The notes under the pieces are model-generated. The model was given only the letters and a program-made list of their open reading frames with translations, was not told where the DNA came from and searched no databases. Below are positions 25,031 to 64,000 of a DNA stretch of 64,000 nucleotides, piece after piece. Position 1 is the stretch's first letter; every line of letters begins with the position of its first letter. This DNA is from Streptomyces lienomycini. Its GTDB lineage: Bacteria; Actinomycetota; Actinomycetes; Streptomycetales; Streptomycetaceae. The stretch spans positions 3,596,001 through 3,660,000 of the forward strand of contig NZ_CP116257.1 in the NCBI RefSeq assembly GCF_027947595.1, written 5' to 3'. The position numbers were made by a program, and so were the translations under genes.

Positions 25031-28000
25031 ATGATGGAACCGACCGCTTCTCTCGTACGGCTTTCTCCCGGCCACCCGACCGACATACGCAGGCGGACCG
25101 GCTGCGACCTCCCCGACCGGACCATCGCCGAGGCGTGCGCCATCGCACTGTCCTACTGGGCCTCGGGCCACGGACCCGCCGGCCTCGACCTCACCCCGAG
25201 CACCCTGTTCACCGATGTCCTCGGCTGGGCAGGCAACGGCGGCACGGCACCCGGCGGTTGGGACGTCGGAGCGGACGGCCGGACCATCGCCGTCCCGGCC
25301 GGCGTCGTACCGAGGGACGCGCAGCTCGCGCTCGACGACCTGGCCCGCTTCCCGGACCGGCCGCTCGGCACCGTCGGCCCGTCCGGCCCGGCCGAGCGGC
25401 TGGAGCAACTCGCCGGGTGGAACGACACCGACGCCGACCGGGTCCGCCCGACCCTGGTGGAGATGTTCCGCGCTCAGGTGCGCGCCCGGCCGGACGCCGT
25501 GGCCGTCGTCGACGAGCACCGGACACTGACCTACCGCCAGACGGCGGACCTCTCCGCCCAGCTGGCCCATCACCTGATCGAACGCGGGCTCACCGCCGAA
25601 CAGGTCGTCGGCATCTCCCTGGACCGCTCCGCGGAGATGGTGATCGGGCTGCTCGGCGTGCTCCAGGCGGGCGGCGCGTTCGCCCCGCTCGACCCGCACT
25701 GGCCCGCCGAGCGCCGAGCCGTCGTCATCGAGGACGCCGGGATCGTCGTCCAGCTCAACCACTCGGGCGAGCCCGCCCCGGACGAACCGGAAGCCGTGGC
25801 CGTGGACCTCGGCGACTGGCGGCTGGGCACCCACCCCACCGAGGGCACCGGCGTCACCGCCCCCGGCGACGCCCTGGCCTACGTGATCTTCACCTCCGGG
25901 TCGACCGGGCGGCCCAAGGGCGCCATGATCCGGCACGAGGCGATCAGCGAACGCCTGCTGTGGCAGATCCACGAGATCCTGGGCTTCGGCCACGACGACG
26001 CGTCCCTGTTCAAGGCGCCCCTGTCCTTCGACATCTCCATCAACGAGATCTTCCTGCCCCTCGTCAGCGGCGGCCGGCTCGTGATCCTGCGGCCCGGCGG
26101 CGAACGCGACCCGCACCACCTGCTGGGCGTGATCGCCGAACAGCGCGTCACCTTCACGTACCTGGTCTCCTCCATGCTGGACGTGCTGCTGGAGATGGCG
26201 GGCGACTCCGGACGCCTCGACAGCCTCCGGCACGTCTGGTGCGGCGGCGAGGTGCTCACGCCGGAGCTGTACGAGCGCTTCCGCACCCGGCTCGACATCC
26301 CCCTGTACCACGGCTACGGTCCCGCCGAGACGACGATCGGTGTCTCGCACGTCGTCTACCGGGGAGCGGCGGAGCGCCTGTCGACGTCGATCGGCCGGGC
26401 CAACCCCAACACCCGGCTCTACGTCCTGGACGACGAACTGCGCCCCGTCCCGGTCGGCGTCGGCGGCGAACTGTACGCGGGCGGACTGCTGCTGGGCCGG
26501 GGGTACGTGAACGCCCCGGGCCTGACCGCCTCCCGGTTCGTGGCCAACCCCTTCGCCGACGACGGCTCCCGCCTGTACCGGACCGGCGACCTCGCACGCT
26601 TCGCCCCCGACGGCACGCTCGACTTCCTCGGCCGCGCGGACAACCAGATCAAGATCCGCGGCATGCGCCTGGAGATCGAGGACGTCGAGGCCGGTCTCGC
26701 GGAGCACCCCGGCGTCCGCCACACCTGCGTCGTCGCCAGGAAGAACGCGGCGGGCGGCACCTACCTCGTCGGATACGTGATCCCGGCCGCCGGGCACCAG
26801 GACCTGCGCGCGGACGCGGTCAGGACCTGGGCCGACGAGCACATGGTCGCGTACATGGTGCCCACGCACGTCGTCGTCATGACCCGGTTCCCGCTCACCG
26901 CGAACGGCAAGCTCGACCGGAACGCGCTGCCCGAGCCCGATCTCGGCACGGCCCAGGTCACCCCGCCCACCACCGACGACGAGCGCGCCGTGTGCACGGC
27001 CGTCGCGACGCTCCTCCAACGGGACCGGGTCGGCGTCGACCAGGACTTCTTCCGGCTCGGCGGGGACAGCATCCTGGCGATCTCCCTGCTGAGCGCGCTG
27101 CGCGACGCCGGGCTCCACGTCACGGCACGGCAGATCTTCACCCACAGCACGCTGGGCGCGCTGGCCGCGGTGGCGAGCCACGAGGACACCGCGACCGCGG
27201 ACCACCGCGACGTCCCGACCGGCACCGTCGTGGGGTCGCCCGTCGTGCAGTGGCTCGGCGAGACCACGGACGCGATCGACGGCTTCGTCCAGTCGGTCGT
27301 GCTGCGCACCCCCGCCGGCCTGACGGCCGACGCACTCGACGCCGTCCTCGCCGCCGTCGTCCGCCGGCACGCCATGCTGCGGGCCAGGCTGGTACGCGGC
27401 GAGCGATGGAGCTTCGACATTCCGGAGGCGGACCCGGCCGCGACGTCGGCCGCGGCACTCTGGCAGGAGGACGACCGGCCGATCGACGCGTGCGTCGCCC
27501 TCGCCACCGCGGGACTCGACCCGGCCGGCGGGGCCATGCTGCGCGCCGTCTGGCGCCGCGCGGCACGGCAACTGGTCGTCGTCGTCCACCACGTGGTGAT
27601 CGACGGCGTGTCCTGGCGGGTGCTGACGGAGGACCTGGCCACGGCATGGCGGCTGTTAACCTCGGGCGCACCGGTCGAACTCCCCGTCGTCGGCACGTCG
27701 TTCAGACGCTGGACCCAGCTCCTCGAACGCGCGGCGTTCGACGCGGACAGCACCTGTTTCCGGCGCCCGCTGCCGGGCCCGGACCAGCCGCTGGGCAGAC
27801 GCGCCCCCTCCGAGGCCGACACCGTCGCCCACGAGCGGACACGGACCGTCGCGGTCGACGCCCGGACCACGGCCGCACTGCTCGGCGAAACACCCGCCAG
27901 GTTCCACGCGGGAGTCAACGACGTACTCGTGACGGCCCTCGCCGTCACCCTCGCCCGATGGCGCCGCGCCCTCGGCCAGGACCAGACCTTCGCCCACCTC

Positions 28001-31000
28001 GAACTCGAGGGCCACGGACGCGAGCCCGGCTTCGTCGCGCCGTCCGCCGGGTTCGAGCCCGAACTCGCCCGGACCGTCGGCTGGTTCACCACCCTCTTCC
28101 CGGCCACCGTCGACCCCGGTCCGGCCCCCGACCCCACCGCACCCGACTACCTCGCCGCCGCCCTCAAGGCGGTCAAGGAAGACCTCGCACGCGTACCGCA
28201 CAACGGCGTCTCCTACGGCGCCCTGCGCCATCTGGCCCACACGGCCTTCGACACCCCCGCACCCCAGGTGCTCTTCAACTACCTGGGCCGCTTCGCCGCG
28301 GGCTCGCCGGAGGACTGGCAACTCGCACGGACGACAGGCCAGTTGGGTGAGAGGCGCGACCCGCGCATGCGCCTGCCCCGCGCCCTGGAGTTCAACGCGA
28401 TCGCCGAACCCGGCCCCACCGGCGCATACGAGCTGGCCACCGTCATCTCCTGGCCCGACGGCATGTTCACCGACGAGGACATCACGACCCTCGGCACCTA
28501 CTACCGCGAAGCCCTCACCGGCCTCGCCGCGCTCGAACAGGGCGGCCACTCGCCCAGCGACTTCCGCCCGCTGCGGCTCACCCAGGCGGACGTCGACGCC
28601 CTCGACGGCCCGGCGCTGCGGGACATCCTTCCGCTGACCCCGCTGCAGGAGGGCCTGTACTTCCACTCGGTCTACGACGACGCCGCCACCGGCAGCTACG
28701 TCGAGCAGCAACTGCTGACACTGGAGGGCGAGGTGGACCCCGACCGGCTCGCGACGGCGGCCACCCGCCTGCTCACCCTCCACCCGAACCTGGCCGCACG
28801 CTTCGTGGCCCTGGCCGACGGCCGTGTGGTCTGCGTACTGGAGAGCGGGGTCGAGGCGCCCTTCACCACACTGGACCGCCCCGGCATCACCGACGACGAG
28901 ATCCGCGCCCACGCCGAGCACGACCGCCGCACCGGATTCGACCTGTCCGTCGGCCCGCTGACCCGGTACACCCTCATCCGCACCGGAGCCGGCCGGCACG
29001 TCCTGGTGCAGACGGTGCACCACATCATCGCCGACGGCTGGTCGGTGCCGCCCATGCTGCGGACCCTGCTGGCCGAGTACCACGCGCCCGGGTCCGGCCA
29101 CGCCCTCGGCGGGTTCCCCGACCACGCCCGCCGGCTCGCCGGCCGCGACGACGAGGAGGGCGAGCGGGTGTGGCGGGAGCAGTTGGCCGGACTGCCCGGC
29201 CCCACCCTGGTCGCCGAGGGGCACACCCCCTCCGACCGGTTCGCGGACACCGCCGTGACGCCCGGGACCGACGTCGACGCCGCCGCCCGGTCGGCCGGCG
29301 TACCGCTGAGCGTGGCCGTCCACAGCGCCTGGGCCCTCACCCTGGGCGGCCTGCTGCACCGCGACGACGTCGTGTTCGGTTCCACGGTGTCCGGACGCGA
29401 CGTCGACGTGCCCGGCATCGAGGACATGGTGGGCCTGTTCATCAACACCGTTCCCCTGCGTGCCCGGTGGGCCGCCACCACGACCGGGGGCGAGCTGCTC
29501 GCCTCCCTGCGGGCACACCAGAGCGCGGTACTGCCGCACCAGCACCTCTCGCTCGCCGGGATCGCCCGCCGGGCCGGCGCCGGCGCCCTCTTCGACACCC
29601 TGGTGGTGTTCGACGTGGCGACCGACACGGACGACCTGCGGCGACCCGGCGACACCCTCGTCATCACCGGCATCGCCAACGAGGGCGCCCCGCACTACCC
29701 GCTGACCCTGGTGGTGGAACGCACACCCGACGGCCGCCCGCGCTTCAACCTCATCCACGACACCGAGCTGCTCCGGGAGACCGGCGCCCGGGAGATCCTC
29801 GGCATGTTCACCCGGAACCTCACCGGCCTGCTCACCCGCCCGGACACCCCGGTCGGCGACCTGGCGTCCGAGGCGGCCGGGGAGATCGAGCCGATCGGCC
29901 CGGCGACCCTGGGCGAACTGTTCGACACCGCGGCACACCGCCACCCCGGCGCCACCGCCGTCACCCAGTGCGCCCTCGACGGGAGCACCCGCTCGCTGAC
30001 CTACCGCGAACTGGACCTGGCGAAGAACGAGTTGGCCGCCGTCCTGCGCGCGGCCGGTGTCGGACCCGGCAGGCGCGTCGCCGTGGCGGTGCCGCGCTCC
30101 GTCGAGCAGGTCGTCGCCCTGGTCGCCGTCGTCGCGGCGGGCGGGGCCTACGTACCGCTGGACCTGGCGTACCCGGACGAGCGCCTGGAGTACGTCCTCG
30201 CCGACTCCGCGCCGCAGGTCGTCCTCGTGGGACCGGAGCAGCGCGACCGGTTCACGCGGCTGCTCGACCGGGCCGGCGTGGTGGCCCGCGTACTCGTCCC
30301 GGGCGACGAGCCGCCCCCCAGCGCGGCGGAGCCCGCGACCGGCCCCGAACGGCACGACCCCGCGTACGTCATCTACACCTCCGGATCGACCGGCCGGCCC
30401 AAGGGCGTCGTCGTCCCGCACTCCAGCGTGGTGACGCTCCTCGCCCGTACCCGGCCGGCCATGGCCTTCGGACCGGACGACGTGTGGGTCCAGTTCCACT
30501 CCTACTCCTTCGACTTCGCCGTCTGGGAACTGTGGGGCGCGCTCGCGCACGGCGGCGAGCTGCTGGTGCCGGAGTACGCGCTGACCCGTTCCCCGGTCGA
30601 CTTCCACCGCCTGGTTCGGGAGCGCGGGGTGACCGTGCTCAACCAGACCCCGTCGGCCTTCTACCGGTTCGCCGAGGCCGACCGGCACGCGGGCCGGCCG
30701 CTGCCCGCACTGCGCCGCGTCGTCTTCGGCGGCGAGGCGCTCGACCTCGGGCGGCTGCACGACTGGGTCGGGCGGCACGGCACCGACTCGCCCGAGCTGG
30801 TCAACATGTACGGCATCACCGAGACCACCGTCCACGTCACCCACCGGGTACTGACCGGCGCCGACTTCACACCCGGCGCCGCCACCGCCAGCCCGATCGG
30901 CGGTCCGCTCCCCGGCCTCGTCACCCACCTGCTCGACGACCGGCTCCGTCCGGTGCCGCCGGGCCGGGTCGGCGCCATCTACGTCGCCGGCGACCAGGTG

Positions 31001-34000
31001 TCGCTCGGCTACCTGGGCAGGCCGGGACTCACCGCGGGCCGGTTCGTGGCGGACCCGTTCCGGGCGGACGGCTCCCGCATGTACCACACCGGCGACCTCG
31101 CCCGCCGCACCCTCGGCGGCGAGCTGGAGTTCACCGGCCGCGCCGACGACCAGGTGCAGCTCAAGGGATTCCGCGTCGAGTTGGGCGAGGTGGAGTCCGC
31201 GATCCGCGCCGTCGACGGCGTGTCCGACGTCGCCGTCACCGTGGCGGACAGCGAGGACCACCTGATCGCGCACGTCGTGGGCCGGGCGCCCGCGGACCTC
31301 ACCGCCCTCCTGTCGGCGAAGCTGCCCGCCCACATGGTGCCCGGCCGGGTGGTGCCCGTGGACGCCCTGCCGCTGACGGTCAACGGCAAACTGGACCGCG
31401 CGGCGCTGACCGCGCGCGCGGCGTCGACACCCGCGCGGGACACGGCGGACGGCCTGAACGACTCCGTACTCGCCGCACTCGTCGGCATCTTCGCCGAGGC
31501 CCTGCCCGGTGCGCGGCCGGACGCCGACACCGACTTCTTCGGCGCCGGAGGCGACAGCATCGTCGCCATCACCGTGATCAACCGGGCCAGGGCGCTCGGC
31601 CTGCCGATCACGCCCCGCGACGTGTTCCTGCTCCGGACACCCCGCGCGCTCGCCGAACACCTGCCGACGCGCACGGCGGGGCCCGAGGCGCCGCCCGCAC
31701 CCGCCCGCCACGACGACGGCCCGCTGCCGCCCACCCCGATCATCCTGCGGCAGCGGAGACTGGGCGCATCCCTCGCCCGGTTCGCCCAGGCCAGGACGCT
31801 GGCGGCACCCGAGGGCACGGGATTCGCCGACGCGGAGCGCGCCGCGCGCGCCGTCGTCGCCGCACATCCGGCGCTGCGGCTGCGGCTGCGCGTCGACCAC
31901 GGGACGTGGTCGCTGCGCACCGAAGCGGTCCGCGAGGTGACGGTCGCCCGCCGGGCCGGAACCGACGCCGCGGGCGCGGCCGACGCGGCGGCCGACCGGC
32001 TCGATCCCGAGACCGGCGACGTCATCGCCTTCACCTGGCTGGAGACGAGCCGGACCCTCGTCGTCACCGCCCACCACCTCGCCGTCGACGCCGTGTCCTG
32101 GCTGATCCTGCTGGACGACCTGGCCGGCGCGATGCGCGGTGCGGCGGTGGCACCGCCGACCACGTCCTACGCCGAGTACGCGGAGGCACTCACCCGCCGG
32201 TCCACCCACGCGACCGACGACCTGGCCCACTGGATCACCACGCTCGGCGCCCCCGCACCGCTGCCCACCGCCGGGAACCCGCGCGACACGACGGTCGTAC
32301 TCGCCCCCGAGGTGAGCGACCTGCTGACCCGCACCGCGCCCGCCGCACTGGGCCTGGGCCTCACCGAGCTGCTGTGCGGCGCACTGCGCGTCGCGCTGAC
32401 CCGCGTCCAGCCGACGGCCACCGACCTGGCGATCGACCTGGAACGGCACGGCAGGGTCCCGGCCCTCGACCACCACGACTACACCCGTACGGTCGGCTGG
32501 TTCACCTCCGTCGCGCCCGTCCGGCTCACCCCGCACACCGACCCCGTCGCCGCGGCCCGCGAGGTCGCCGAACGCCAGCCGGACGAGCGCGCGCACATCG
32601 CCTACGGCGGGCTCAGGTACCTCAACCCGCAGACCGCCCCGCTGCTCGACGCCGCCCACCCGCAGGTGCTGTTCAACTACCTGGGCCGGGGCGCCGAGTC
32701 CGAGGCACCGCGCCTCACCGGCGGCGACCCGGGCGGCCCGTACGCCGTCGAGGTCAACGCGTGGACCGACGCGGCCACCGGCAGCCTGCACGCGGCCTTC
32801 ACCCTCACCGAGGGGATCCCCGACGAGATCACCGGGCACTGGCACCGCGCCCTCGAACAGATCGTGCGGGCCGCCGCGACGGCCGAGCGCACGGCACCCG
32901 TCACCCCCCTCCAGCGGGGCCTGTTCTTCCAGGCCCAACTGACGGGCCCGGCCGGGCACTACGTGGCCCAGAGCTACTTCACCTTCGAACAGCGCCTGGA
33001 CACCGACGCGCTGGCCGAAGCGATGGCTTACGTGATCGCACGGCACCCGGTGGTGGGAGCGGGCTTCGCCACCGACGACGAGGGAAACCCCGTCCAGGTC
33101 CTCGCCCCGGGCCGGCGCGTCGACGTCCGCACGGTCGAGGCGGCGACGGACACGGAGGTCGACGCGCTGCGGCTGCGCGACCGGGAGCGGGGATTCGACC
33201 CCGGTGAGCCGCCGCTGATCCGGCTGACCGTGGTGCGACGGCCCGGCGACCTCGACGGACTCCTGCTGAGCTACCACCTGCTGCTGTGGGACGGCTGGTC
33301 GCGGGAGATCGTGCTGCGCGACCTGTTCGACGCCTACCGGACCGCCCGCGAGGGAGCGCCCCTCCACCCGGTGCCCGCCACGCCGGGCTTCGAGGACCAC
33401 GCCAGGTCCCTCGCCGCCAGGGACACCGCCGCGTCGGAACGCTTCTGGGTGCGGCACCTGGCCGGCCTGCCCGGCCCGACCCTGCTGGCCGGACCGGCGC
33501 CCGCCCTGCCCGACGACCTGCCGAGCGCACTCGTGCACACGCTGACCTCCGAACGGTCCAACGCGCTCAGGGACGCGGCCAAAGCGCACGGCGTCACCCT
33601 GAACACCGTGCTGACCGGCGCGTTCGGCCTCCTCCTCGGTGCCCGCACCGGACGCGCCGACGCCGTGTTCGGAGTCACCGTCTCCGGCCGGGAGGGCGAG
33701 GGACTGGCCGGCATCGTCGGCGTACTGCTCAACACCGTGCCCCTGTGGACGCGGGCACGGCCGCACGACAGCGTCCGCGGCTACCTGACGGCCGTACAGG
33801 CGGACCGGGTCGAGGCCATGGAGCACGAGCACCTCGGGCTCGGCGAGATCCAGCGGGCCGGCGGCCACGACACCCTGTTCGACAACCTGTTCGTCCTGCA
33901 GAACTTCCTGGACCTGGACGCCTTCGCCGAGATGAACGCCCGGCACGGCATCACTTCGGTGCGGGCCGACGACTCCACCCACTACCCCTTCACCTGGGTC

Positions 34001-35965
34001 GTCACCCCCGGCGACCGGCTCACCGTCAAACTGGAGTACCGGGACCACGACACCCCCGCGGCCCGGCGCCTCCTCGACGACTACGTACGGGTACTCGACG
34101 ACCTGGCCGCGCGCACCGGAGCCACCGGGCCGATCGGATCCCTCCCGGGCCTGGAGCCCGCACCCGGGACGACCCCGCGCACCGACATCGGCACGGACAC
34201 CGTCGTCGACCGCTTCGACCGGGCGGCGGACCGCGAGCCGGGCCGCACGGCCCTCGTCGCCCACGGCTCGACCCTGACCTTCGCCGAACTGCGCGACCGC
34301 AGCCGGGCGGTGGCGGGAGTACTCGTCCGGCGCGGCATCGGCCCGGAGACGACGGTGGGACTCGCGATCCCGCGCTCCCTCGACTCGATCACCGCCCTCT
34401 TCGCCGTACTGCGCACCGGTGCCGCGTACGTGCCGCTGGAGCTGGACCACCCGGACGAGCGGATCGCGACGATCGTCGCGGACGCCCGCCCGGAGGCCGT
34501 GCTCACGGTGAGCACGGTGGCGCACCGGCTGCCCGCCGGCGCCGACCTGATCGAGCTGGACCGGCCGCTGCCCGAGGCCGAGCCGTTCGCGACGTTCGCT
34601 CCGGACGACCCGAACCGGCTGCGGCACCCCGCGTACACCATCTACACCTCCGGCTCGACCGGGCGTCCCAAGGGCGTCGTGACCGAGTACGCCGGACTCA
34701 CCAACATGCTGGTCAACCACCAGCGCCGGATCTTCGAACCGGTCCTGGCGGAGCACGGCCACCGCACCTTCCGCGTCGCCCACACCGTGTCGTTCGCGTT
34801 CGACATGTCGTGGGAGGAACTGCTGTGGCTCGCCGACGGCCACGAGGTGCACGTCTGCGACGAGGAACTGCGCCGCGACGCCCCCCGGTTGGTGGACTAC
34901 TGCCTGGAGCACGGGATCGACGTCGTCAACGTCACCCCGACCTACGCCCAGCAACTGGTCGCCGAGGGGCTGCTCGACGACCCGGCCCGCCGCCCCGCAC
35001 TGGTGCTGCTCGGCGGCGAGGCCGTCACCCCGGCCCTGTGGCGGCGGCTCGCCGAGACCGAGGGCACCGTCGGCTACAACCTGTACGGACCCACCGAGTA
35101 CACCATCAACACCCTCGGCGTCGGCACCTTCGAGTGCCCCGACCCGGCGGTGGGGGTCGCGATCGACAACACGGACGTGTACGTGCTGGACCCGTGGCTG
35201 CGGCCGCTGCCCGACGGCGTCCCCGGCGAGCTGTACGTCGCGGGGATCGGCATCGCTCGCGGCTACCTCGGGCAACCCGCCCAGACCGCGCACCGCTTCG
35301 TCGCCTGCCCGTTCGGCGCACCCGGCGAGCGCATGTACCGCACCGGGGACCTGGTGGTGCGGCGGCCCGACGGGAACCTGATGTATCTGGGCCGCACCGA
35401 CCAGCAGGTCAAGATCCGCGGCCACCGGGTCGAACTCGGCGAGGTCGAGGCCGCTTTCGCCGCGCACCCGGCGGTGCGCCTCGCCGCCGCCGTCGCCCAG
35501 CCCGACCCGCAGGTCGACGGTGCCCACCGGCTGGCCGCCTACCTGGTGCTGGACGGCGCCGACCTGGCCGCCGTCGCCGCCGAAGCGGGCGCCGGGCTGC
35601 CGGACTTCCTGCGCCCGACCCACTACGCCCGGGTCGACCGCATCCCGCTGACCGTGAACGGGAAGGCCGACACCAAGGCCCTCCCGGAGGCCAAGCCGCT
35701 GGGCGCGCTGACCACGGCGGGGGAGCGCGGACCGCAGACGGAGACCGAGACGACGGTGTGCGAACTCTTCGCCGAGGCACTGGACCTGGACGACGACGAG
35801 GTGAGCGCGGTGAGCGACTTCGTGGCCCTCGGCGGACACTCCATGCTGGCGGTGCGGCTGACCGGCCTGCTCCGCCGCGAGTACGGTCCTGTGATCACCA
35901 TCCGTGATCTGTTCACCCTGCGAACCCCGGAAGCGATTGCCCGCCACCTCGATGACGAATCCTGA
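25031..35965 (+). CDS. cchH: Trimodular coelichelin nonribosomal peptide synthetase
   Basis: A 3644-residue NRPS. The order is A1 (core [14 protein letters not shown] near 284), T1 (LGGDSI near 680), E1 ([10 protein letters not shown] near 854), C2 (HHIIADGWS near 1330), A2 (near 1779), T2 (GGDSI near 2172), E2 ([10 protein letters not shown] near 2346), C3 (HLLLWDGWS near 2735), A3 (near 3203) and T3 (LGGHSM near 3598). There is no thioesterase. Pocket residues read D-I-N-Y-W-G-G-I-G for A1 (formyl-hydroxyornithine), D-F-W-N..M-V-H for A2 (threonine) and D-M-E-N-L-G-L-I-N for A3 (hydroxyornithine), as reported for coelichelin. Two epimerases fit the D residues. The known product is a tetrapeptide, so module 1 is used twice. 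The C3 motif lacks the second His. Confidence 0.96.
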
Positions 35966-37652
35966 CACCCAGCGGCCCCGCGCGGGGTCCGACATCCTCC
36001 GCACCGCCCTTCGGCGCAACGTCGGCGCGATGGCCTGGGGGACCGTCCTCATGGGCCTCTACCAGGCCGGTGAGACCGCCTTCCCCATCGCGCTCGGCCT
36101 GATCGTCGAACACACCATGCGCCACCGGAGCCTCGACGCGCTCGGCCTCTCCCTCGCGGCGCTGGCCGTGATCATCACGACCGTGTCGCTGTCCTGGCGG
36201 TTCGGGATGCGGATCCTGCAGAAGGCCAACACGACCGAGGCGCACCGCTGGCGGGTCCGGGTCGCCGACCGCGCACTGCGGCCGGTGGCCTCGGACGTCG
36301 ACCTGAAGTCCGGCGAGGTGCTGACCATCGCCACCGAGGACGCCGACCAGACCGCCGACATCATCGAGGTGGTGCCGCTGCTGATCAGCTCGCTGGTGGC
36401 GGTGGTGATCGCGGCGGTCGCGCTGGGCCTGGCCGACATCAGGCTCGGGCTGCTGGTCATCGTGGGAACCGTCGCGATCCTGTCCGTGCTGAGCGTGATG
36501 TCCAGGCGCATCGGCTCCAGCACCCGCGAGCAGCAGGCCCGGGTGGCGCGGGCGGGCGCCAAGGTCGCCGACCTCATCATCGGCCTGCGCCCGCTGCACG
36601 GCTTCGGCGGCAACCACGCGGCGTTCCGCTCCTACCGCGAGGTCAGCACGGACGCCAGGCGCCAGTCCGTCACCGTCGCCCGGGTCAACGGCGTCTACGC
36701 GGGCACGGCGCTGGCCCTCAACGCGGTGCTCGCCGCCGCGGTGACCCTCACGGCGGGCTGGCTGGCCTTCCGGGGCCGGATCACCATCGGCGAGCTGGTC
36801 ATGGCCGTGGGCCTCGCGCAGTTCATCATGGAACCGCTGAAGCTGTTCTCGGAGATGCCGAAGTACGTGATGATCGCGCGGGCCTCGGCCGAGCGGATGG
36901 CCCTGCTCCTGACCGCGCCGCCGGTGACGACACCGGGACGGGAGCGGCCGTCCGACGGCGCCGACCTGGAGGTCGACTGCGTCCGCCACGGGGAACTGCG
37001 CAAGGTGCGGTTCCGGGTGGCCGCGGGCGAGTTCGTGGCCGTCGCCGCCTACCAGCCGCGTGCGGCGGCCGACCTCGCGGCGATCCTCGCCCTGACCGTC
37101 CCGCCCGACGCGTACGAGGGGACGGTGCGGGTCGGCGGACGGGACCTCGCGGACCTGGCGGTCGAGGGCGTCCGCGCGCACCTGCTGGTCAACCCGTACG
37201 ACGGCGAGATCTTCGCGGGCACCCTCCGTTCCAACATCGACCCGTCCGGCACCAGCGGCAGCGTCCCCGAAGCGGTCGAGGCGTCGATGCTGACCGACGT
37301 CGTCGCCCTGCACCGGGAAGGACTCGACTACGCCGTCCGCGACCGCGGCGCCAACCTCTCCGGGGGCCAGCGCCAACGGCTGTCCCTGGCCCGCGCCCTG
37401 GCCGCCGACACCGACGTCCTCGTGCTGCGCGACCCGACGACCGCCGTCGACGCCGTCACCGAGCAGCTCATCGCACGGGGCGTCGCCGAGCTGCGCCGGG
37501 GCCGCACCACCCTGGTGATCACCAGCAGCCCCGCGCTCCTGGACGCCGCCGACCGTGTCCTCGTCCTGGACGAAGGAGTCGTCACCGCCGAGGACACGCA
37601 CCGCAACCTCCTCGCCACCGACGCGGAGTACTGCCTGGCGGTGACCCGGTGA
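35952..37652 (+). CDS. cchI: ABC exporter half-transporter, intact signature but dead Walker motifs
   Basis: A 566-residue half-transporter whose ATG overlaps the end of cchH by 14 bases. Six membrane helices (about 25-300) precede the ATPase domain. The signature [15 protein letters not shown] (about 469) is perfect. The Walker A site is [12 protein letters not shown] with no GKS/T, Walker B reads LVLRDPTT with the Asp replaced by Arg, and the H-loop reads ITSSP with His replaced by Ser. It cannot hydrolyse ATP at its own site, but it can supply the signature to CchG. It probably works as a heterodimer exporting coelichelin. Confidence 0.88.
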
Positions 37653-37684
37653 CCCGGTGACCGGGTGCGATCAGGGTCACCGGG
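37653..37684. terminator. Bidirectional hairpin between cchI and cchJ
   Basis: CCCGGTGACC and GGTCACCGGG form a 10-bp stem with a 12-base loop, placed right after the cchI stop and 30 bp from the convergent cchJ end. A GTGACCCG repeat in cchI overlaps the left arm. Confidence 0.65.
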
Positions 37685-37714
37685 CGGACCGCTCGGGGCG
37701 TGGCGGGGCGGGGC

Positions 37715-38806
37715 CTATGCGAGGGCCCAGGCCACGTCCCGGAGCAGTGCCTGCCGCCACCCCGCCCGGTCGTGGTCCGACGCGGACCTGGAGACCCGCA
37801 CGGTCGCACCGGCCTGTTCGACCAGGGTCTCCACCAGGGCGCAGTGGGGGAGCATCCGGGTCTCGTGTTCCCCCACGTCGAACGCGATCCGCAGGCCGGA
37901 CAGATCCGGACGCGCGCGCAGGCGTGCCGCGAGGGCACCGCCGACCGGGCCACCCAGCGGGTCCGCGGGGTCCGCGGCGTCGGGCGTCCACCACAGTGAG
38001 GCCGACTGGCAGGCGACGCGCGACACCCACTCGGGGAACTCCAGCGCCGCGTACAGCGCGCTCAGACCGCCGAGGCTCTGTCCCGCGACCACCAGCCGGT
38101 CCGGTTCGGCGCGTACCCCGCTCCGGGCCACCAGCGGCAGCAACTCGTCGCGCACCGCCTCCCACAGCGCGGGCCGGCACGTGAACTCCGCCTCCCGGTC
38201 CCTGGTGGGGAGGAACACGAGAGTGACCGCGGGCGCCTCGCCGCTCGCGAAGGCGGAGTCGAAGGCGGCCGTCGCCGGATGCAGGTACAGCCAGTCGTCC
38301 CCGTCGAGCAGCAGGACCACCGGCCCGCCCCCGCCCACCGGATGGACCCGCACGGTGCGCCGCCCGCCGAGCCGCTCGCTCGTCCAGCGCAGCCGGGTAC
38401 GGGGCAGGGGCAGGACGTCGGCGGCGTCGACCGGGGGCCAGTGCGGCTGGGCGGGGGCGTCCGGGGTGGCGGCGATGGACAGGTCGCCGCCCGCGCCGAC
38501 GGGGTTGAGGGGGTCGGCGTACGCCGTGTCGCCCACGAGGAACCGGTACGTCACCCGCAGGCGTGCCGGCATGCTCACCTCGGCGTACCAGCAGTCCGTG
38601 TCGCCCCACCGCCGCATCGGCACCGGTGCCGACCAGCTCTCGAAGACGATGTTCGCCGCACGCGCTCCGCGCCGCAGGAACAGGGTCGTCCACCCGTCGC
38701 CGTCGGGCAGCGGCACGGGCGACGTCGCGGCGGCCCAGAAGGCGTCGGTGCCGGGCTCTCCGGTCAGTCCGAACGCGGCGAACGTGTCCGCCCCCGCCCG
38801 CCTCAT
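37715..38806 (-). CDS. cchJ: Siderophore esterase (Fes/IroE-like)
   Basis: A 363-residue alpha/beta hydrolase of the enterochelin-esterase family. An N-terminal beta-sandwich (about 1-140, PMRRWGDTDCWYAEV and VTYRFLVGD) precedes the catalytic domain with the nucleophile in VVAGQSLGGLSAL and an Asp/His pair near the C-terminus (FDVGEHE, SASDHDRAGW). ATG 38806 follows AAGGAG; no signal peptide is seen, so it acts in the cytoplasm. It may release the peptide from the thioesterase-less NRPS or cleave the ferric complex after uptake. It is divergent from the MbtH gene with an iron box between. Confidence 0.88.
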   Translation of the reverse strand: MRRAGADTFAAFGLTGEPGTDAFWAAATSPVPLPDGDGWTTLFLRRGARAANIVFESWSAPVPMRRWGDTDCWYAEVSMPARLRVTYRFLVGDTAYADPLNPVGAGGDLSIAATPDAPAQPHWPPVDAADVLPLPRTRLRWTSERLGGRRTVRVHPVGGGGPVVLLLDGDDWLYLHPATAAFDSAFASGEAPAVTLVFLPTRDREAEFTCRPALWEAVRDELLPLVARSGVRAEPDRLVVAGQSLGGLSALYAALEFPEWVSRVACQSASLWWTPDAADPADPLGGPVGGALAARLRARPDLSGLRIAFDVGEHETRMLPHCALVETLVEQAGATVRVSRSASDHDRAGWRQALLRDVAWALA

Positions 38807-38855
38807 GAACGGCTCCTTGTGGAGCGGAAATCCGGAAGGCTAAGCTCATCGCACA

Positions 38856-38874
38856 TTAGGCGAGCCTAACCTAA
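38856..38874. promoter_or_regulatory. Iron box shared by cchJ and the MbtH gene
   Basis: TTAGGCGAGCCTAACCTAA matches the 19-bp iron box closely. It lies between the divergent cchJ (50 bp away) and MbtH-like gene (20 bp away) and can repress both. Confidence 0.85.
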
Positions 38875-38894
38875 TCCATCGGGAGGTATCGGGT

Positions 38895-39107
38895 ATGAGC
38901 ACCAACCCCTTCGACGACGCCGACGGTCGGTTCCTCGTCCTGGTGAACGACGAGGGACAGCACTCGCTCTGGCCGTCCTTCGCAGCGGTCCCCGGAGGAT
39001 GGACGACCGTCTTCGAGGAGAACACCCGGGACGCCTGCCTGGCGTACGTCGAGGCCAACTGGACCGACCTGCGCCCGCGTTCGCCGGCCGGATCCGCGGA
39101 CGCCTGA
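38895..39107 (+). CDS. cchK: MbtH-like protein
   Basis: A 70-residue MbtH-family protein. The family core is complete: [20 protein letters not shown], and [11 protein letters not shown], with the two structural Trp residues and the conserved NWTDLRP end. GGGAGG precedes ATG 38895. MbtH proteins bind and activate NRPS adenylation domains, so it is expected to assist CchH. The symbol follows the usual naming of the last gene of the coelichelin cluster; some sources leave it unnamed. Confidence 0.93.
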
Positions 39108-39121
39108 CCCCCGGACCCCGA

Positions 39122-41020: not shown

Positions 41021-42205
41021 GTGAACCCACCCACGCCCTCGGGCGCCCGGATCAGCATCATCGGCGCGGGCCCCGGAGGACTCACCTGTGCGCGAGTCCT
41101 GCACCGGCACGGCATCGCGGCGACGGTGTACGACCGCGACCCGGACGCGGACGCACGCGATCAGGGCGGCTCGCTCGACCTGCACGAGGAGGACGGTCAG
41201 CTCGCGCTGGGCGAAGCGGGCCTGCTGGAGGAGTTCTTCGAGCTGGCCAGGTGCGAGAGCCAGGAGGAACGCCGCATCGACCCCGCGGGCCGCGTCCTCG
41301 CCCACCGGCTGCCGGGCGAGGGCGAGACGGCCCGCCCCGAGATCGACCGCGGTCAGCTCCGGGAGCTCCTGCTGCGCTCGCTCGACCCCGGGACGGTCCG
41401 CTGGGGGCACACCCTGGAGTCGGTGAGCGGGCCGGCCGACGGACCCCGGACACTGACGTTCGCCGACGGGAGCACCGTGGAGACGGACCTGGTGATCGGA
41501 GCGGACGGCGCCTTCTCCCGCGTCCGCCCGGCGGTGTCCGACGCCGTGCCGCGGTACACCGGGGTCGGCTTCCTCGAGGCGTGGTTCGACGACATGGAGT
41601 CGGCACACCCGGAACTCTCCGCACTGGTGGGCCGGGGCAGCGCCCACGTGGCCGACGGCGAACGGGGTCTCTTCGCGCAGCGCAACAGCGGCGGTCACCT
41701 GCGCGTCTACATCATGCGGCGGGTCCCGCTCGACTGGATGACGGCGAGCGGTCTTCGCCCGGAGGACACCGCCGGCATCCGCGCACGTCTCCTCGGCGAG
41801 TACGCGGCCTGGTCACCGCGGACACTCCGGATGATCACCGAGAACGACGGTCCCTACGTCGACCGCCCCCTCTACGCCCTGCCCGCGCCGCACACCTGGC
41901 AGCACACGCCCGGCGTGACCCTCCTGGGAGACGCCGCACATCTCATGCCCCCGCTCGGCGTCGGCGTCAACCTCGCCATGCTCGACGCCGCGGAACTCGC
42001 GCTCGCCCTCGCCGGCTCCGCCACCGTCGACGACGCCCTGCGCACCTACGAGGAGACGATGCTGCCGCGCTCGGCGCGCTACGCCGAGATGCTCGACGGC
42101 GGCGCCGGGTTCCTGCTGGAGGAGCCGGACGCCGGCGAACTCGCGCGGTTCGGTGAGCCGGGGCGGGGCCCCGGGCACGGGGAGCAGGGCATACCCGGCC
42201 AGTAG
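41021..42205 (+). CDS. FAD-dependent monooxygenase, TetX-like
   Basis: A 394-residue class A flavoprotein monooxygenase. The Rossmann motif IIGAGPGGLTCARVL is at the N-terminus, the DG motif is VIGADGAFSRVRP, and the GD motif is LLGDAAHLMPPLGVGVNLAM. GTG 41021 follows GGAAGGAAG. Length and the GGSLDLHEEDGQ segment match the TetX / tetracycline-hydroxylase group, which also includes many hydroxylases of aromatic or polyketide substrates. Whether it inactivates a drug is unknown. The divergent TetR gene and operator repeats suggest that a small aromatic inducer controls it. Confidence 0.85.
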   Translation: MNPPTPSGARISIIGAGPGGLTCARVLHRHGIAATVYDRDPDADARDQGGSLDLHEEDGQLALGEAGLLEEFFELARCESQEERRIDPAGRVLAHRLPGEGETARPEIDRGQLRELLLRSLDPGTVRWGHTLESVSGPADGPRTLTFADGSTVETDLVIGADGAFSRVRPAVSDAVPRYTGVGFLEAWFDDMESAHPELSALVGRGSAHVADGERGLFAQRNSGGHLRVYIMRRVPLDWMTASGLRPEDTAGIRARLLGEYAAWSPRTLRMITENDGPYVDRPLYALPAPHTWQHTPGVTLLGDAAHLMPPLGVGVNLAMLDAAELALALAGSATVDDALRTYEETMLPRSARYAEMLDGGAGFLLEEPDAGELARFGEPGRGPGHGEQGIPGQ

Positions 42206-56792: not shown

Positions 56793-57764
56793 GTGAGCAA
56801 CACGGAAGCGCACCCCGCCGAACTGAGGTGCGGAGCCCTGGAGAACGGCGTGCCCGCCGCCGACGTGGAGATCCTGACCGCGCGGGACGTCCCGCTCGGC
56901 GGTCCGCGCGCGATGACGGTGCGCCGTACCCTGCCGCAGCGGGCCCGGACCCTGATCGGAGCCTGGTGCTTCGCCGACCACTACGGCCCCGACGAGGTCT
57001 CCGGGTCGGGAGGCATGAACGTCGCCCCGCATCCGCACACCGGTCTGCAGACGGTCAGCTGGCTGTTCAGCGGGCTGATCGAGCACCGGGACAGTCTGGG
57101 CAGCCACGCGCTCGTCAGGCCGGGCGAAGTGAACCTCATGACGGGCGGCCGAGGCATCAGCCACTCCGAGGTGTCCACACCGGACACGACGGTCCTGCAC
57201 GGCGTCCAGCTCTGGGTGGCGCTGCCCGAGGAGCACCGCGACACCGCCCCGGACTTCCGGCACCACGTGCCCGTCCCGGTGGAACTGGACGGCGCCGAGG
57301 TGCGCGTCTTCCTCGGCTCGCTCGCCGGTGACACCTCCCCGGTCGGCACCTTCACGCCCCTGCTGGGCGCCGAGGTGACCCTGGCCGCGGGGGCCGCCGT
57401 AACCCTCGACGTCGACCCCGGCTTCGAGCACGGCGTCCTCGTCGACAGCGGCGACGTCCGCGTCGACGACACGGCCGTACGGCCCGCCGAACTGGCGTAC
57501 ACCGCGCCCGGCCGGCGCACCCTCACCCTGCGCAACGAGGCGCCCGGAGCCGCCCGGCTGCTCCTGCTCGGCGGTCCGCCCTTCACGGAGGAGATCGTCA
57601 TGTGGTGGAACTTCGTCGGCCGGTCGCACGAGGACGTCGCACGCGCCCGCGAGGACTGGACGACGGGGACCCGTTTCGGCGAGGTGCACGGATACGACGG
57701 TGCGCCGCTGCCCGCGCCGGAGCTGCCGAACCTGCCTCTGAAGCCGCGAGGAAGGGCGCGCTGA
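56793..57764 (+). CDS. Pirin-family protein
   Basis: A 323-residue bicupin. The N-terminal cupin carries the metal ligands HPHTGLQTV with His residues spaced as in pirin, and a later His/Glu pair in GGRGISHSEVS. The C-terminal half (about 180-290) is a second cupin without metal residues and ends with EEIVMWWNFVGRS, the pirin C-terminal motif. GTG 56793 follows GAGGAC. Some bacterial pirins have quercetinase activity, others bind regulators; the role here is unknown. Confidence 0.9.
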   Translation: MSNTEAHPAELRCGALENGVPAADVEILTARDVPLGGPRAMTVRRTLPQRARTLIGAWCFADHYGPDEVSGSGGMNVAPHPHTGLQTVSWLFSGLIEHRDSLGSHALVRPGEVNLMTGGRGISHSEVSTPDTTVLHGVQLWVALPEEHRDTAPDFRHHVPVPVELDGAEVRVFLGSLAGDTSPVGTFTPLLGAEVTLAAGAAVTLDVDPGFEHGVLVDSGDVRVDDTAVRPAELAYTAPGRRTLTLRNEAPGAARLLLLGGPPFTEEIVMWWNFVGRSHEDVARAREDWTTGTRFGEVHGYDGAPLPAPELPNLPLKPRGRAR

Positions 57765-57943
57765 CCCGCTGTCCGCGCACTCGGGCACGGATCGCCCGGC
57801 CTCTTGGCCCCGGGCCGCCGCCCATGCCCCGTCGCCCCGCGCGTCTTGCGGGCCGAACCGCTCCCTCCAGCAAGCTGGTTAGATCGGGTCGGGCAATGCC
57901 GACTGGGACCGCGCAGGCGTTCCGCGTCACAGAGGGAGACACC

Positions 57944-60265
<2,322 letters not shown>

Positions 60266-60292: not shown

Positions 60293-61039
60293 TCAGGGGC
60301 GCGGTGCGAGCCGCCCGCGCAGGACGGCACACACCCGCTCGCGCTGGGACTCGAGATAGAAGTGGTCGCCGGGCAGCTCGTGGAAGGAGAAGTCGCCTTC
60401 GGCGAGACGCGCCCACTCGGCCGCCTCGTGCGGCTTGACGTACGGGTCCTCGCTCCCCGTGAGGACGACCAGGGGACAGTTCAGCGGAGTGTCGGCCTCG
60501 CGCCGGTAGGTCTCGATGGCCCGGTAGTCGGCCCGGATGGTGGGCAGCAGGACGTCCAGCAGCTCGGGGTCGGCGAGGATCGCCGGGTCCGTCGCGCCGA
60601 GCCGCAGCAGTTCGGCGACCAGCCTGTCGTCCGGCAGCGCGTGGATGCCGTTGTCACGGTTCGCCGAGGGGACGTTCTGCCCGGAGACGAACAGGGCCCG
60701 CAACGAGTGCCCGCGCTCCCGCAGCCGGAGCGTCACCTCGTAGGCCAGGGCGGCCCCCATGCTGTGGCCGAAGAAGGACGTCGGCCGGTCCAGGATCGGC
60801 ACCACCGCGTCGGCTATGCCGTCGGCGAGTTCCGCGACGCTGTCCACCAGCCGTTCCTGGAAGCGGTCTTGTCGACCCGGGTACTGGACGGCGAGGATGT
60901 CGGCCTCGGCAGCGAGAGCGGTCGCCATGGGCCGGAAGAAGGCCGCGGTCCCGCCGGCGTGCGGGAAGCACAGCAGTTGCACGGGCGCGGCCGGCGCGTG
61001 CCGGAAGCCGCGGATCCAGGGGTTGACCGGGAAGAGCAC
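60293..61039 (-). CDS. Type II thioesterase (GrsT/RifR-like)
   Basis: A 248-residue alpha/beta hydrolase. The nucleophile is in FFGHSMGAALAYE, the oxyanion region is LLCFPHAGGTAAFF, and the acid and base are in LTGSEDPYV and LPGDHFYL. GTG 61039 follows GGAGG five bases upstream. Such enzymes remove stalled acyl groups from NRPS or PKS carrier proteins. No carrier gene is adjacent in the window, so its partner probably lies beyond the right edge. It is divergent from the DUF6875 gene. Confidence 0.92.
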   Translation of the reverse strand: MLFPVNPWIRGFRHAPAAPVQLLCFPHAGGTAAFFRPMATALAAEADILAVQYPGRQDRFQERLVDSVAELADGIADAVVPILDRPTSFFGHSMGAALAYEVTLRLRERGHSLRALFVSGQNVPSANRDNGIHALPDDRLVAELLRLGATDPAILADPELLDVLLPTIRADYRAIETYRREADTPLNCPLVVLTGSEDPYVKPHEAAEWARLAEGDFSFHELPGDHFYLESQRERVCAVLRGRLAPRP

Positions 61040-61324: not shown

Positions 61325-62020
61325 ATGTCAATCGATGCGTTGGCGATCGACGTCGAGAAGGCCCTCGACAGCGTCGACGAATGGCTGAATTCCTATGTCA
61401 CCCAACCGCACGAGCAGCTCGGCCGCTCCGGCGCGGTGTGCCCGTTCGTGGCACCCGCCCGACGGGCCGGCGCGGTCGAGACGGTGGTGCGGCTGCTGGG
61501 GCCCGCGGCCGGCCTCCCACTGATCAAAGAGGTCATCCGGTGCGGTCTCGAGGAGTTCGAACGGTTTGAGTGGAGGACCCCCAACCCGTCGCTGCGCGCA
61601 CTGATCATCGCGCTTCCCGACCTGCCGCCCGAAGCCCTCGGACTGCTCGACGAGGCACATGCGCAGGTCAAGACCGACAGCGTCGAACGCGGCCTGATGA
61701 TCGGCCAGTTCCACCCCGCGTGCGAGGAACCCGCGGTCCGCAACCCCGCGTTCCGGGTGAGCCGGTCACCCGTCCCCCTGGTGGCGGTGCGGGCGATGGC
61801 CGTGCACGACATCCTCTTCCTCGGTGAACGCGCGGACTGGTTCGCCCAGTACCACCGCCGCTTCGGCGAGCGGTACCGCTCCGAGTCCAACGGGATCGGC
61901 CCGCTGCTGACCACGCTCTACCACAAGGCGCTGGCCCTGCACGGCCCCGGGGGCGGCCCGGGAGCGGCCGACGTGGTCGTCCCCACCGCGCCCCCGTCGC
62001 CCGGGAAGGGGACCGAGTGA
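61325..62020 (+). CDS. DUF6875-type protein in putative biosynthetic cluster
   Basis: A 231-residue cytosolic protein. GGAGGGG precedes ATG 61325. It has the pattern PHEQLGRSGAVCPFVAPARR near residue 28, then a long middle region (LRALIIALPDLPPEALGLLD) and a conserved FHPACEEPAVRNP. This pattern fits the uncharacterised DUF6875 group, which I recall as neighbouring biosynthetic genes; that memory was not verified. One Cys (in VCPF) and the His/Cys/Glu cluster in FHPACEEP are candidate functional residues. It shares a GTGA overlap with the TDO-like gene, so the two proteins are probably made in equal amounts. Confidence 0.7.
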   Translation: MSIDALAIDVEKALDSVDEWLNSYVTQPHEQLGRSGAVCPFVAPARRAGAVETVVRLLGPAAGLPLIKEVIRCGLEEFERFEWRTPNPSLRALIIALPDLPPEALGLLDEAHAQVKTDSVERGLMIGQFHPACEEPAVRNPAFRVSRSPVPLVAVRAMAVHDILFLGERADWFAQYHRRFGERYRSESNGIGPLLTTLYHKALALHGPGGGPGAADVVVPTAPPSPGKGTE

Positions 62021-62880
62021 CCGCCGCCCGCTCGCCCGACGGCCCGCCCGAAGCGCCGGAGCCGCGGTGTCCCTACGGAGGGGGCACCGGCACACCGCCC
62101 CCGACGGCGTACGCCGGGTACGCGGAGATGGACGCCCTCCTCGCGCTCCAGCACCCCCGGACCTCAGCGGCCACCGAACCGGGTTTCATCATTATGAGCC
62201 AGGTCATGGAGTTGCTCTTCGAACTCCTCCGTACCGAATTCACCGCGGCTCGGAACCGACTGTCCGAGGATGCCGTGGACGAGGCGCTGTGGACTTTGCG
62301 CCGGGCCGTCCGGGTGCAGCAGGTCGCGCTCTCGTCGTGGGACTTCTTCAGTGCCATGACTCCGATGGAATTCGCCGAGTTCCGTGACTCCCTGGGCGCG
62401 GCGTCCGGTTTTCAGTCTGCTTCCTACCGCCGCCTCGAATTCCTCCTCGGCAACAAGAACCCGCAGATGGTCCAACCGCACCTCAACGCGTCGAGCCACG
62501 AGGTGGTGGTGCGGCAGTTGCACGAGCCGAGTCTGTACGACGCCGTGCTGCTCCTGCTGCGGCGGCGCGGTCTGCCCGTGGCGGACACCGTCCTCTCACG
62601 CCCCGTGGATGCCTCGTACGAGCCCGACGCCAGTGTGGAGCAGGCCTGGCGCGAGGTGTACGAGAAGAGAGCCGCGCACCACTCGCTGTTCCTGCTGGGC
62701 GAGGCGCTGACCGACGTGGCCGAGTCCTTCGCGCGCTGGCGCTACACCCATCTGACGGTGGTCCAGCGTGTGCTCGGCGGCAAGCCCGGCACGGGCGGCA
62801 CCGACGGGGTGGCATGGCTGGAGCGCATCAGCGGCCACCGGTTCTTCCCGGAGTTGTGGTCCGCGCGATCGTGCCTGTGA
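62017..62880 (+). CDS. Tryptophan 2,3-dioxygenase-like haem protein, active-site variant
   Basis: A 287-residue TDO-superfamily protein starting at GTG 62017. The haem ligand His245 (WRYTHLTVVQR) and the substrate loop KPGTGGTDG are present, as is the Arg pocket GFQSASYRRLEFLLGNKNP. The helix that normally reads FIIVHQAYELWFK reads FIIMSQVMELLFE, so the substrate-contact His is Ser61 and the Trp/Lys pair is lost. It may act on a modified tryptophan or other aromatic amino acid rather than in plain kynurenine synthesis. No formamidase or kynureninase gene is near. Cluster context points to secondary metabolism. Confidence 0.85.
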   Translation: MTAARSPDGPPEAPEPRCPYGGGTGTPPPTAYAGYAEMDALLALQHPRTSAATEPGFIIMSQVMELLFELLRTEFTAARNRLSEDAVDEALWTLRRAVRVQQVALSSWDFFSAMTPMEFAEFRDSLGAASGFQSASYRRLEFLLGNKNPQMVQPHLNASSHEVVVRQLHEPSLYDAVLLLLRRRGLPVADTVLSRPVDASYEPDASVEQAWREVYEKRAAHHSLFLLGEALTDVAESFARWRYTHLTVVQRVLGGKPGTGGTDGVAWLERISGHRFFPELWSARSCL

Positions 62881-62985
62881 GCAGGGGGCCGGTCCGCCCG
62901 CCGGGTCGCCTCCGGGGTCGCCTGCGGATCTCTCCTCCCTTTCACCCCGTCCTCTTCGAAAACTCACCCCATGAGGGAGCGCATC

Positions 62986-64000
62986 ATGTCCAAGGCCGGC
63001 CCCGTCGACCATGACGCTCTGACCCGGATCCTCTTCGGCGCCTCCGCCTTCCGCCTGCTCCAAGCGGGCTGCGAGCTGGGCCTGTTCGCCCGGCTGCACG
63101 ACGAGGGGCCGCTGACCGCCCAGCAGGTCGCCGTCGGGACGAAGCTGCAGCCGAGGGCGGTGCAGACCCTCCTGCTGGGCACGACCTCGCTCGGTCTGAC
63201 CGTGCGCAGCAGGGGGCGCTACAGCAACGCCGAGCTGATCGGGGAGATGATCGGCGACGGCACCTGGAGCATCGTCGAGGACATCGTCCGGTTCGAGGAC
63301 CGCATCACCCTCCCGGCCTCCGCCGACCTGGTCGAGTCGCTGCGGCAGAACACGAACGTCGGACTGCGGAGCATCCCGGGGGAGGGCGACGACCTCTACC
63401 ACCGGCTCGCCGCGCAGCCCGAGTTGGAGGCCCTGTTCTACCAGTGCATGCGTTCGTGGTCACGCCTTTCCAACCCGGTCCTCGTGGACCGTGCCGAGCT
63501 GGCCGGGGTGTCCCGGGTGCTCGACGTCGGAGGCGGCGACGGAGTCAACGCGATAGCGCTGGCCGAGGTGAACCCGGGAACCTCCTTCACCGTCGTGGAC
63601 ATGCCCGGAGCCCTCGACATCGCCGGTCGCAGGATCACCGAGCGGGGCCTGGCCGACCGGATCTCCGTGAAGCCGGGCGACATCTTCGCCGACGACTTCC
63701 CGGACGGCCACGACTGCGTGCTGTTCGCCAACCAGTTGGTCATCTGGTCGCCCGAGGAGAACGCGGCGCTGCTGAAGAAGGCGTACGACTGCCTGCCCTC
63801 CGGGGGACAGGTGCTGATCTTCAACGCGTTCTCCGACGACAGCGGGGACGGACCGCTGTACGCCGCGCTGGACAACGTCTACTTCGCCACGTTGCCGGCG
63901 GCGAACAGCACGCTCTACCACTGGGGGCAGTACGAGGAGTGGCTGCGGGACGTCGGCTTCCAGCGTGTCGAACGGCTTCCCGGCAGGACGTGGACGCCGC
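62986..64000 (+). CDS. SAM-dependent O-methyltransferase (3' end cut by window edge)
   Basis: At least 338 residues. The N-terminal winged-helix dimerisation domain (about 1-100, ALTRILFGASAFRLLQAGCE) precedes a Rossmann methyltransferase domain with the SAM motif VLDVGGGDGVNAIAL and the acidic loop FTVVDMPGALD. This is the plant-type/AcnF-like O-methyltransferase fold (Methyltransf_2) used on small aromatic hydroxyls. ATG 62986 follows GAGGGAG; ATG 62971 is an alternative. It probably modifies the product of the TDO-like enzyme. The downstream genes are outside the window. Confidence 0.9.
   Translation, partial: MSKAGPVDHDALTRILFGASAFRLLQAGCELGLFARLHDEGPLTAQQVAVGTKLQPRAVQTLLLGTTSLGLTVRSRGRYSNAELIGEMIGDGTWSIVEDIVRFEDRITLPASADLVESLRQNTNVGLRSIPGEGDDLYHRLAAQPELEALFYQCMRSWSRLSNPVLVDRAELAGVSRVLDVGGGDGVNAIALAEVNPGTSFTVVDMPGALDIAGRRITERGLADRISVKPGDIFADDFPDGHDCVLFANQLVIWSPEENAALLKKAYDCLPSGGQVLIFNAFSDDSGDGPLYAALDNVYFATLPAANSTLYHWGQYEEWLRDVGFQRVERLPGRTWTP

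Follow-up and report, generated by a model that had tools for sequence, protein, structure and literature searches.

A DUF6875 protein as candidate tryptophan C7-hydroxylase of 4-methyl-3-hydroxyanthranilic acid biosynthesis at the left end of an actinomycin G-type cluster in Streptomyces lienomycini

Positions 61325 to 64000 of a 64,000-nucleotide stretch of the Streptomyces lienomycini genome (C1:3596001-3660000, hereafter the window; coordinates above 64000 run on along the same contig) hold a gene for a DUF6875 protein, a gene for a tryptophan 2,3-dioxygenase (TDO)-like enzyme and most of a methyltransferase gene. Taken as a whole, we consider it likely that these genes form the left edge of a nonribosomal peptide synthetase (NRPS) cluster of actinomycin G type, and that the DUF6875 protein is a Cys39-ligated heme L-tryptophan C7-hydroxylase which, acting ahead of the TDO, leads to 4-methyl-3-hydroxyanthranilic acid (4-MHA) without a flavin kynurenine 3-monooxygenase (KMO). 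Actinomycin D is a clinical drug. According to published work, the acn cluster lacks a gene for the aromatic hydroxylation in its biosynthesis, whereas an indispensable gene next to those for formamidase and TDO was without an established function; if the two are brought together, a single small protein suffices to test this gap in the classic pathway. The DUF6875-TDO pairing is also a pointer to kynurenine chemistry in actinobacteria that bypasses KMO.

The genes to the right of the window were taken from gene calls and Pfam/NCBIfam scans of the contig continuation (Table 1 gives a selection). They comprise two lines of NRPS genes, a chlorinase gene and, together with the genes of the window, the 4-MHA set of TDO, formamidase, kynureninase and SibL-like methyltransferase, plus an aryl-AMP ligase; a motif scan of the cluster found no separate 4-MHA carrier. 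This is a further actinomycin G-type NRPS cluster, ordinary in kind, with the genes at the right edge of the window as its left end. It was assigned to this type because its genes, starting with the UvrA-like one and finishing with the second DUF6875 gene, are collinear with those of the cluster of S. iakyrus, the organism to which the actinomycin G cluster belongs (PMC6521150). The first-pass annotation of the window had taken the region for the edge of an uncharacterised cluster, a description that no longer holds; its expectation of an NRPS or polyketide synthase carrier beyond 64 kb was borne out by the NRPS genes, and its suggestion of a tryptophan-derived product is supported by the gene content.

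In S. iakyrus (NRRL ISP-5482; loci L013, L062 and L212-L215) the whole stretch of about 61 kb is collinear, all five NRPS open reading frames (ORFs) included, with identities of 85% for the UvrA-like protein, 73% for the thioesterase, 83% for DUF6875, 79% for the TDO, 82% for the methyltransferase, 81% for the SIP flavoprotein, 89% for the LmbU-like regulator, 70-83% for the five NRPS ORFs, 80% for the ligase, 82% for both the ABC ATPase and the TetR regulator, 91% for an SDR protein, 86% for the P450, 81% for the formamidase, 87% for the kynureninase, 96% for MbtH and 81% for the second DUF6875. The chlorinase core is 91% identical over 312/313 residues and lies in the same place. The left end is likewise repeated in Streptomyces sp. 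DSM 15324 (L012), and the right end is found in second loci of both strains (L065 in DSM 15324, L062 in S. iakyrus). The S. lienomycini assembly differs from S. iakyrus in carrying frame breaks in both NRPS lines, and neither its P450 at 122742 nor its SIP flavoprotein at 125673 is closely matched in the S. iakyrus stretch (best 40% and 33%, to other genes). Actinomycin G is chlorinated, and among nine genomes searched the closest copies of the chlorinase gene were in DSM 15324 (91%) and in S. iakyrus (83%, across a longer stretch with stops ahead of the gene); the genomes of S. iakyrus, S. parvulus and S. galbus also contained copies of 53-59%, and the five others none.

The acn cluster for actinomycin D in S. 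costaricanus (PMC6521150) resembles this one in its 4-MHA genes, MbtH, aryl-AMP ligase, LmbU, TetR, SIP, ABC and UvrA genes and in two DUF6875 genes. In the acn table, however, a single NRPS line and no chlorinase are listed, whereas S. lienomycini has two lines and a chlorinase, and the 4-MHA genes, consecutive in acn, are split here between the two ends of the cluster. Actinomycin production by S. lienomycini is thus far a prediction drawn from its genes.

In order to place the DUF6875 gene among its relatives, genome contigs were searched with DUF6875, which gave 316 relatives; the best 80 loci were kept, with flanks of up to 10 kb, and their neighbours were mapped by tblastn with the cluster proteins. 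An actinomycin-type NRPS end occurs together with DUF6875 and TDO in 22/80 loci. Besides L012 and L013 there are 20 such loci, and all of them (20/20) show the order NRPS end, DUF6875, formamidase, TDO, kynureninase, methyltransferase, followed by a P450 gene in 14/20 and then, in most and where the stretch reaches, by LmbU, TetR, SIP and ABC genes; this is the gene order of the acn table (PMC6521150). In S. murinus (L033, L058) the DUF6875 protein after the NRPS genes has 211 residues and the second one 207, the latter adjoining a gene of the 184-aa type and MbtH; at those places the acn table lists acnF, with 211 residues (212 in the text), and acnU3, with 207 (PMC6521150). Because gene order and sizes in S. 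murinus match the acn table, the two DUF6875 genes of the acn cluster are very probably acnF and acnU3, an assignment made by order and size and not by the acn sequence. When acnF is inactivated actinomycin D is lost, inactivating acnU3 has no effect, and the authors state that the cluster contains no KMO gene and guess that acnF acts in dimerisation (PMC6521150); that acnF is indispensable is restated in PMC11336835. A reassignment of acnF as hydroxylase was not met in the literature searched, where PMC13307353 was the only match for DUF6875; the preprint by Ma et al. that it cites (doi 10.64898/2025.12.11.692455) may contain one. The type 2 DUF6875 gene, on the minus strand at 121566-122306 and in 22 loci among L043-L065, is a conserved feature of actinomycin clusters, where it adjoins MbtH and an acnU4-like gene.

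The family itself has been described in the literature. DUF6875 proteins are reported to be heme-binding L-tryptophan oxidases, some of them C7-hydroxylases, and deletion of the DUF6875 gene zigI of the zigralone cluster gives a demethoxylated product (PMC13307353). That cluster resembles the present one in combining a DUF6875 gene with a methyltransferase gene, and hydroxylation of indole C7 is expected by its authors; it differs in that no TDO is named in it, the product is a prenylated quinolone and methylation yields a methoxy group (PMC13307353). In the first-pass annotation the DUF6875 protein had been given an unknown step, and it is indeed left with the otherwise unassigned one, but the family is no longer functionally blank.

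The S. lienomycini protein passes the DUF6875 (PF21780) gathering score with 180.3 bits against a cut-off of 24.5, and residues C39, H130 and R156 are invariant in 91 sequences. The thiolate-heme enzyme AglA is the top match in the PDB for its predicted model, ranking first in both structure comparisons. The heme ligand of AglA, a YqcI/YcgG N-hydroxylase, is Cys44 (PMC12866846). In an hhalign comparison of DUF6875 with 16 YqcI/YcgG proteins, Cys39 pairs with a conserved cysteine (16/16; E 0.0045), control alignments of TDO and of a flavoprotein giving E 0.11 and 0.35. A sequence search of the PDB returned 0 matches at E 10. The DUF6875 protein has no match to PF08892 (YqcI/YcgG) at E 0.1, nor does the genome contain a PF08892 protein, and the relation is one of fold similarity only. 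AglA acts on a guanidine nitrogen and DUF6875 is proposed to act on C7 of tryptophan, the position of the cysteine, a putative ligand in DUF6875, being common to both.

The DUF6875 and TDO-like genes are confirmed as a coupled pair, as had been noticed from the sequence, the GTG start of the second lying within the stop of the first (overlap 4 bp). We hypothesize that the DUF6875 protein would be a small heme monooxygenase, its iron held by Cys39, converting L-tryptophan to 7-hydroxytryptophan, and that the coupled TDO would then open the indole and give N-formyl-3-hydroxykynurenine directly. Since the TDO reaction turns C7 of tryptophan into C3 of kynurenine, a C7-hydroxylase ahead of the TDO gives 3-hydroxykynurenine without KMO. 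Formamidase, C-methylation and kynureninase would complete 4-MHA, the chromophore half. The DUF6875 protein is most likely the missing aromatic hydroxylase of this pathway, acting on tryptophan; its heme binding and activity in S. lienomycini, Cys39 as the ligand and hydroxylation before ring opening are what we infer from the evidence above. No kynurenine-pathway partner had been seen next to the pair, which is right for the window, but formamidase and kynureninase lie about 54-56 kb further right in the same cluster.

The methyltransferase, first labelled an O-methyltransferase, has SibL (4qvg) as its top match of solved structure (E 3.9e-119, runner-up 5.4e-29). According to a published abstract, SibL is a 3-hydroxykynurenine C-methyltransferase, and the S. 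lienomycini protein was relabelled as a C-methyltransferase because SibL is far ahead of any O-methyltransferase. Judged by this closest solved relative, it is of SibL type; an alternative start is the ATG at 62986. Two SIP flavoproteins (65292-66236 and 125673-126491) are encoded in and beside the cluster, one of which may feed electrons to the DUF6875 heme enzyme; the SIP gene acnQ is dispensable in the acn cluster (PMC6521150).

A scan with a profile of eight proteins from the same genome detected no flavin monooxygenase-like ORF in 55001-131000 nor, with flanks of at most 10 kb, in the 22 acn-type loci. Such ORFs occur in 6/45 TDO loci (L031, L035, L041, L064, L075, L089), none of them acn-type. 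The genome has 41 PF01494 matches, and no KMO label was obtained among the 9 + 9 of these proteins, from the stronger matches, that were scanned with NCBIfam, a collection that may lack a KMO model. For one PF01494 protein, L103, comparison with solved structures places 6-hydroxynicotinate 3-monooxygenase closer than KMO. In the window, an FAD monooxygenase at 41051-42079 has Tet(X) as its top NCBIfam model, far below the cut-off.

The TDO-like protein stays below the TIGR03036 equivalog cut-off (297.1 bits versus 390.7) and keeps the proximal His240, Arg117 and Thr254, with serine at position 55 (XcTDO numbering); we take His240 to be heme-ligating, Arg117 and Thr254 to bind the substrate, and position 55 to be that of the distal histidine. 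In TDOs linked to DUF6875 this position holds 40 Ser, 15 Gly and 1 Thr (n=56; some loci may be the same strains twice), and in housekeeping Streptomyces TDOs beside kynureninase (L092, L158-L186) 29 Thr and 1 Ser (n=30). A change from distal His55 to serine as a marker that tracks DUF6875 was dropped as main evidence, as no TDO of either group has histidine.

The association of DUF6875 with TDO is more than chance: 45/80 of the best DUF6875 loci have a TDO gene in the flank analysed, which is 10 kb at most. The 35/80 without TDO in the fetched stretch are 22 type 2 copies of actinomycin clusters and 13 others (L034 at a contig end). DUF6875 was present in 3/246 genomes of a phylum survey, S. 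lienomycini included, and in 56/392 genomes of a genus survey, some only at E 1e-5 to 1e-6, in which TDO was found in 385/392. Of 29 other DUF6875 loci of the genus that were laid out, 10 have a TDO within 1.5 kb, and in 17/19 of the rest the protein is only 31-40% identical to that of S. lienomycini. In L066 and L088 a DUF6875 gene without TDO lies near UbiA prenyltransferases, and in L088 an O-methyltransferase is present too, just as it is in the zig cluster; such surroundings fit an indole substrate. An actinomycin NRPS end is absent from 23/45 DUF6875-TDO loci; five of these (L067, L069, L071, L072, L079) have DUF6875-TDO-kynureninase sets with no match to a SibL-like methyltransferase or an actinomycin NRPS, and perhaps make other products of 3-hydroxyanthranilate type. 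In L042 (S. spirodelae) DUF6875, formamidase and kynureninase genes stand together with no TDO match in the 20-kb locus, and the DUF6875 matches of L129, L130 and L135 contain an in-frame TGA.

Some points do not fit neatly with a C7-hydroxylase acting ahead of TDO. A KMO may lie elsewhere in the genome, the distal serine of the TDO is not specific, being at best a matter of Ser/Gly versus Thr that is confounded with descent, and the type 2 DUF6875 protein keeps the invariant Cys/His/Arg set, yet its counterpart acnU3 is reported as dispensable (PMC6521150). The same missing step and the same gene set would also be explained if the DUF6875 protein hydroxylated the aromatic ring after its opening, on kynurenine or N-formylkynurenine, as a heme stand-in for KMO, and the TDO, keeping its usual catalytic residues except the distal histidine, could take tryptophan itself; this order of events is nonetheless unlikely, since the published substrates of DUF6875 proteins are tryptophan or indoles (PMC13307353) and TDO-less DUF6875 genes are found near UbiA prenyltransferases.

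The proposal of the acn paper, in which acnF would help to join two 4-MHA pentapeptides in a last, dimerising step, agrees with the loss of product in the mutant and with the fact that the dimerising enzyme is unknown (PMC6521150), but it appears very improbable to us, as about half of the DUF6875-TDO loci show no actinomycin NRPS end and a DUF6875 gene is also at work in the zig cluster, which makes a pyranoquinolone (PMC13307353). We give equally little credence to a non-enzymatic DUF6875 protein, a partner or regulator of the TDO suggested by the gene overlap, with hydroxylation by a flavin KMO encoded elsewhere: flavin monooxygenases are present in the genome beyond the cluster, only part of them examined, but the invariant Cys/His/Arg set, the match to a heme-enzyme fold and the published heme binding and tryptophan oxidation in the family (PMC13307353) argue for an enzyme. 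Extending the preferred C7-hydroxylase reading, we suppose, with confidence only a little better than even, that actinomycin producers hydroxylate first and cleave later, that the DUF6875-TDO pair is a KMO-free kynurenine route in non-actinomycin clusters of Streptomyces, Nocardia, Umezawaea, Rhodococcus, Nocardiopsis, Actinophytocola, Embleya and Amycolatopsis, and that acnF was misassigned to dimerisation.

Table 1. Features of the left end of the cluster and selected genes of its continuation to the right
Feature	Coordinates	Strand	Remarks
UvrA-like protein	57602..60265 (whole ORF)	+	TIGR00630 693.8 bits, cut-off 729.8
Type II thioesterase	60293..61039	-	PF00975 E 1.2e-54; outside 61325..64000
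DUF6875 protein (type 1, acnF-like), proposed thiolate-heme L-Trp C7 hydroxylase	61325..62020	+	231 aa; Pfam DUF6875 (PF21780) E 4.7e-53
Tryptophan 2,3-dioxygenase-like enzyme	62017..62880	+	287 aa; PF03301 Trp_dioxygenase E 9.6e-51
SibL-like 3-hydroxykynurenine C-methyltransferase	62971..64026	+	Methyltransf_2 E 7.8e-24; ends 26 bp beyond window end
LmbU-family regulator	64093-64812
SIP flavoprotein	65292-66236
NRPS genes, first line	66316-86878	-
Aryl-AMP ligase	87133-88527
ABC ATPase	88882-89856
TetR regulator	90810-91640
P450	93664-94956
PhyH-family, SyrB2-like chlorinase	95002-96183		TIGR01762 457 bits, cut-off 226; SyrB2 E 1.7e-128
NRPS genes, second line	95939-116991	+
Formamidase	match 117012-117845, stop 117887		59% to S. 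parvulus formamidase
Kynureninase	117884-119176
MbtH	120722-120934
184-aa protein	listed between MbtH and second DUF6875
Second DUF6875 (type 2)	121566-122306	-	171 bits
Second P450	122742-124019
Second SIP flavoprotein	125673-126491

To the left of the pair, the divergent type II thioesterase and the UvrA-like gene of the first-pass annotation were both recovered, "-like" being apt for a protein that scores under the UvrA cut-off. The true start of the latter is probably near 57902, and the protein probably serves in self-protection. Its orthologues in L012 and L013 are both 85% identical and adjoin orthologues of the thioesterase (75% and 73%); matches of 47-53% occur in L014, L023, L025 and L057. 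The true start of the chlorinase is probably near 95955.

The domain content of either NRPS line is compatible with five modules, of which the fourth and fifth carry methyltransferase domains, and ends in a thioesterase domain. Epimerisation is placed after module 2, the epimerisation domain being deduced from a third condensation-family stretch, and the frames of both lines are broken near module 3 (about 75800-76300 and 104000-108000), either through faults of sequencing or through genuine damage. In two aligned stretches, the module 3 sequence of one line matches that of the other at 83% and 97% identity. Tentative codes were read for 7/10 adenylation domains, leaving out the opening module of each line and the final one of line B, and gave Val-like, Pro and Gly-like (DILQLG) in each line; as far as they go, they fit Val, Pro, Gly and Val after the first residue.

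Elsewhere in the window, positions 25031-39108 contain a 3644-aa ORF, further ORFs and an MbtH-like gene (62% to S. parvulus MbtH), and look like a separate NRPS cluster, perhaps for a siderophore.

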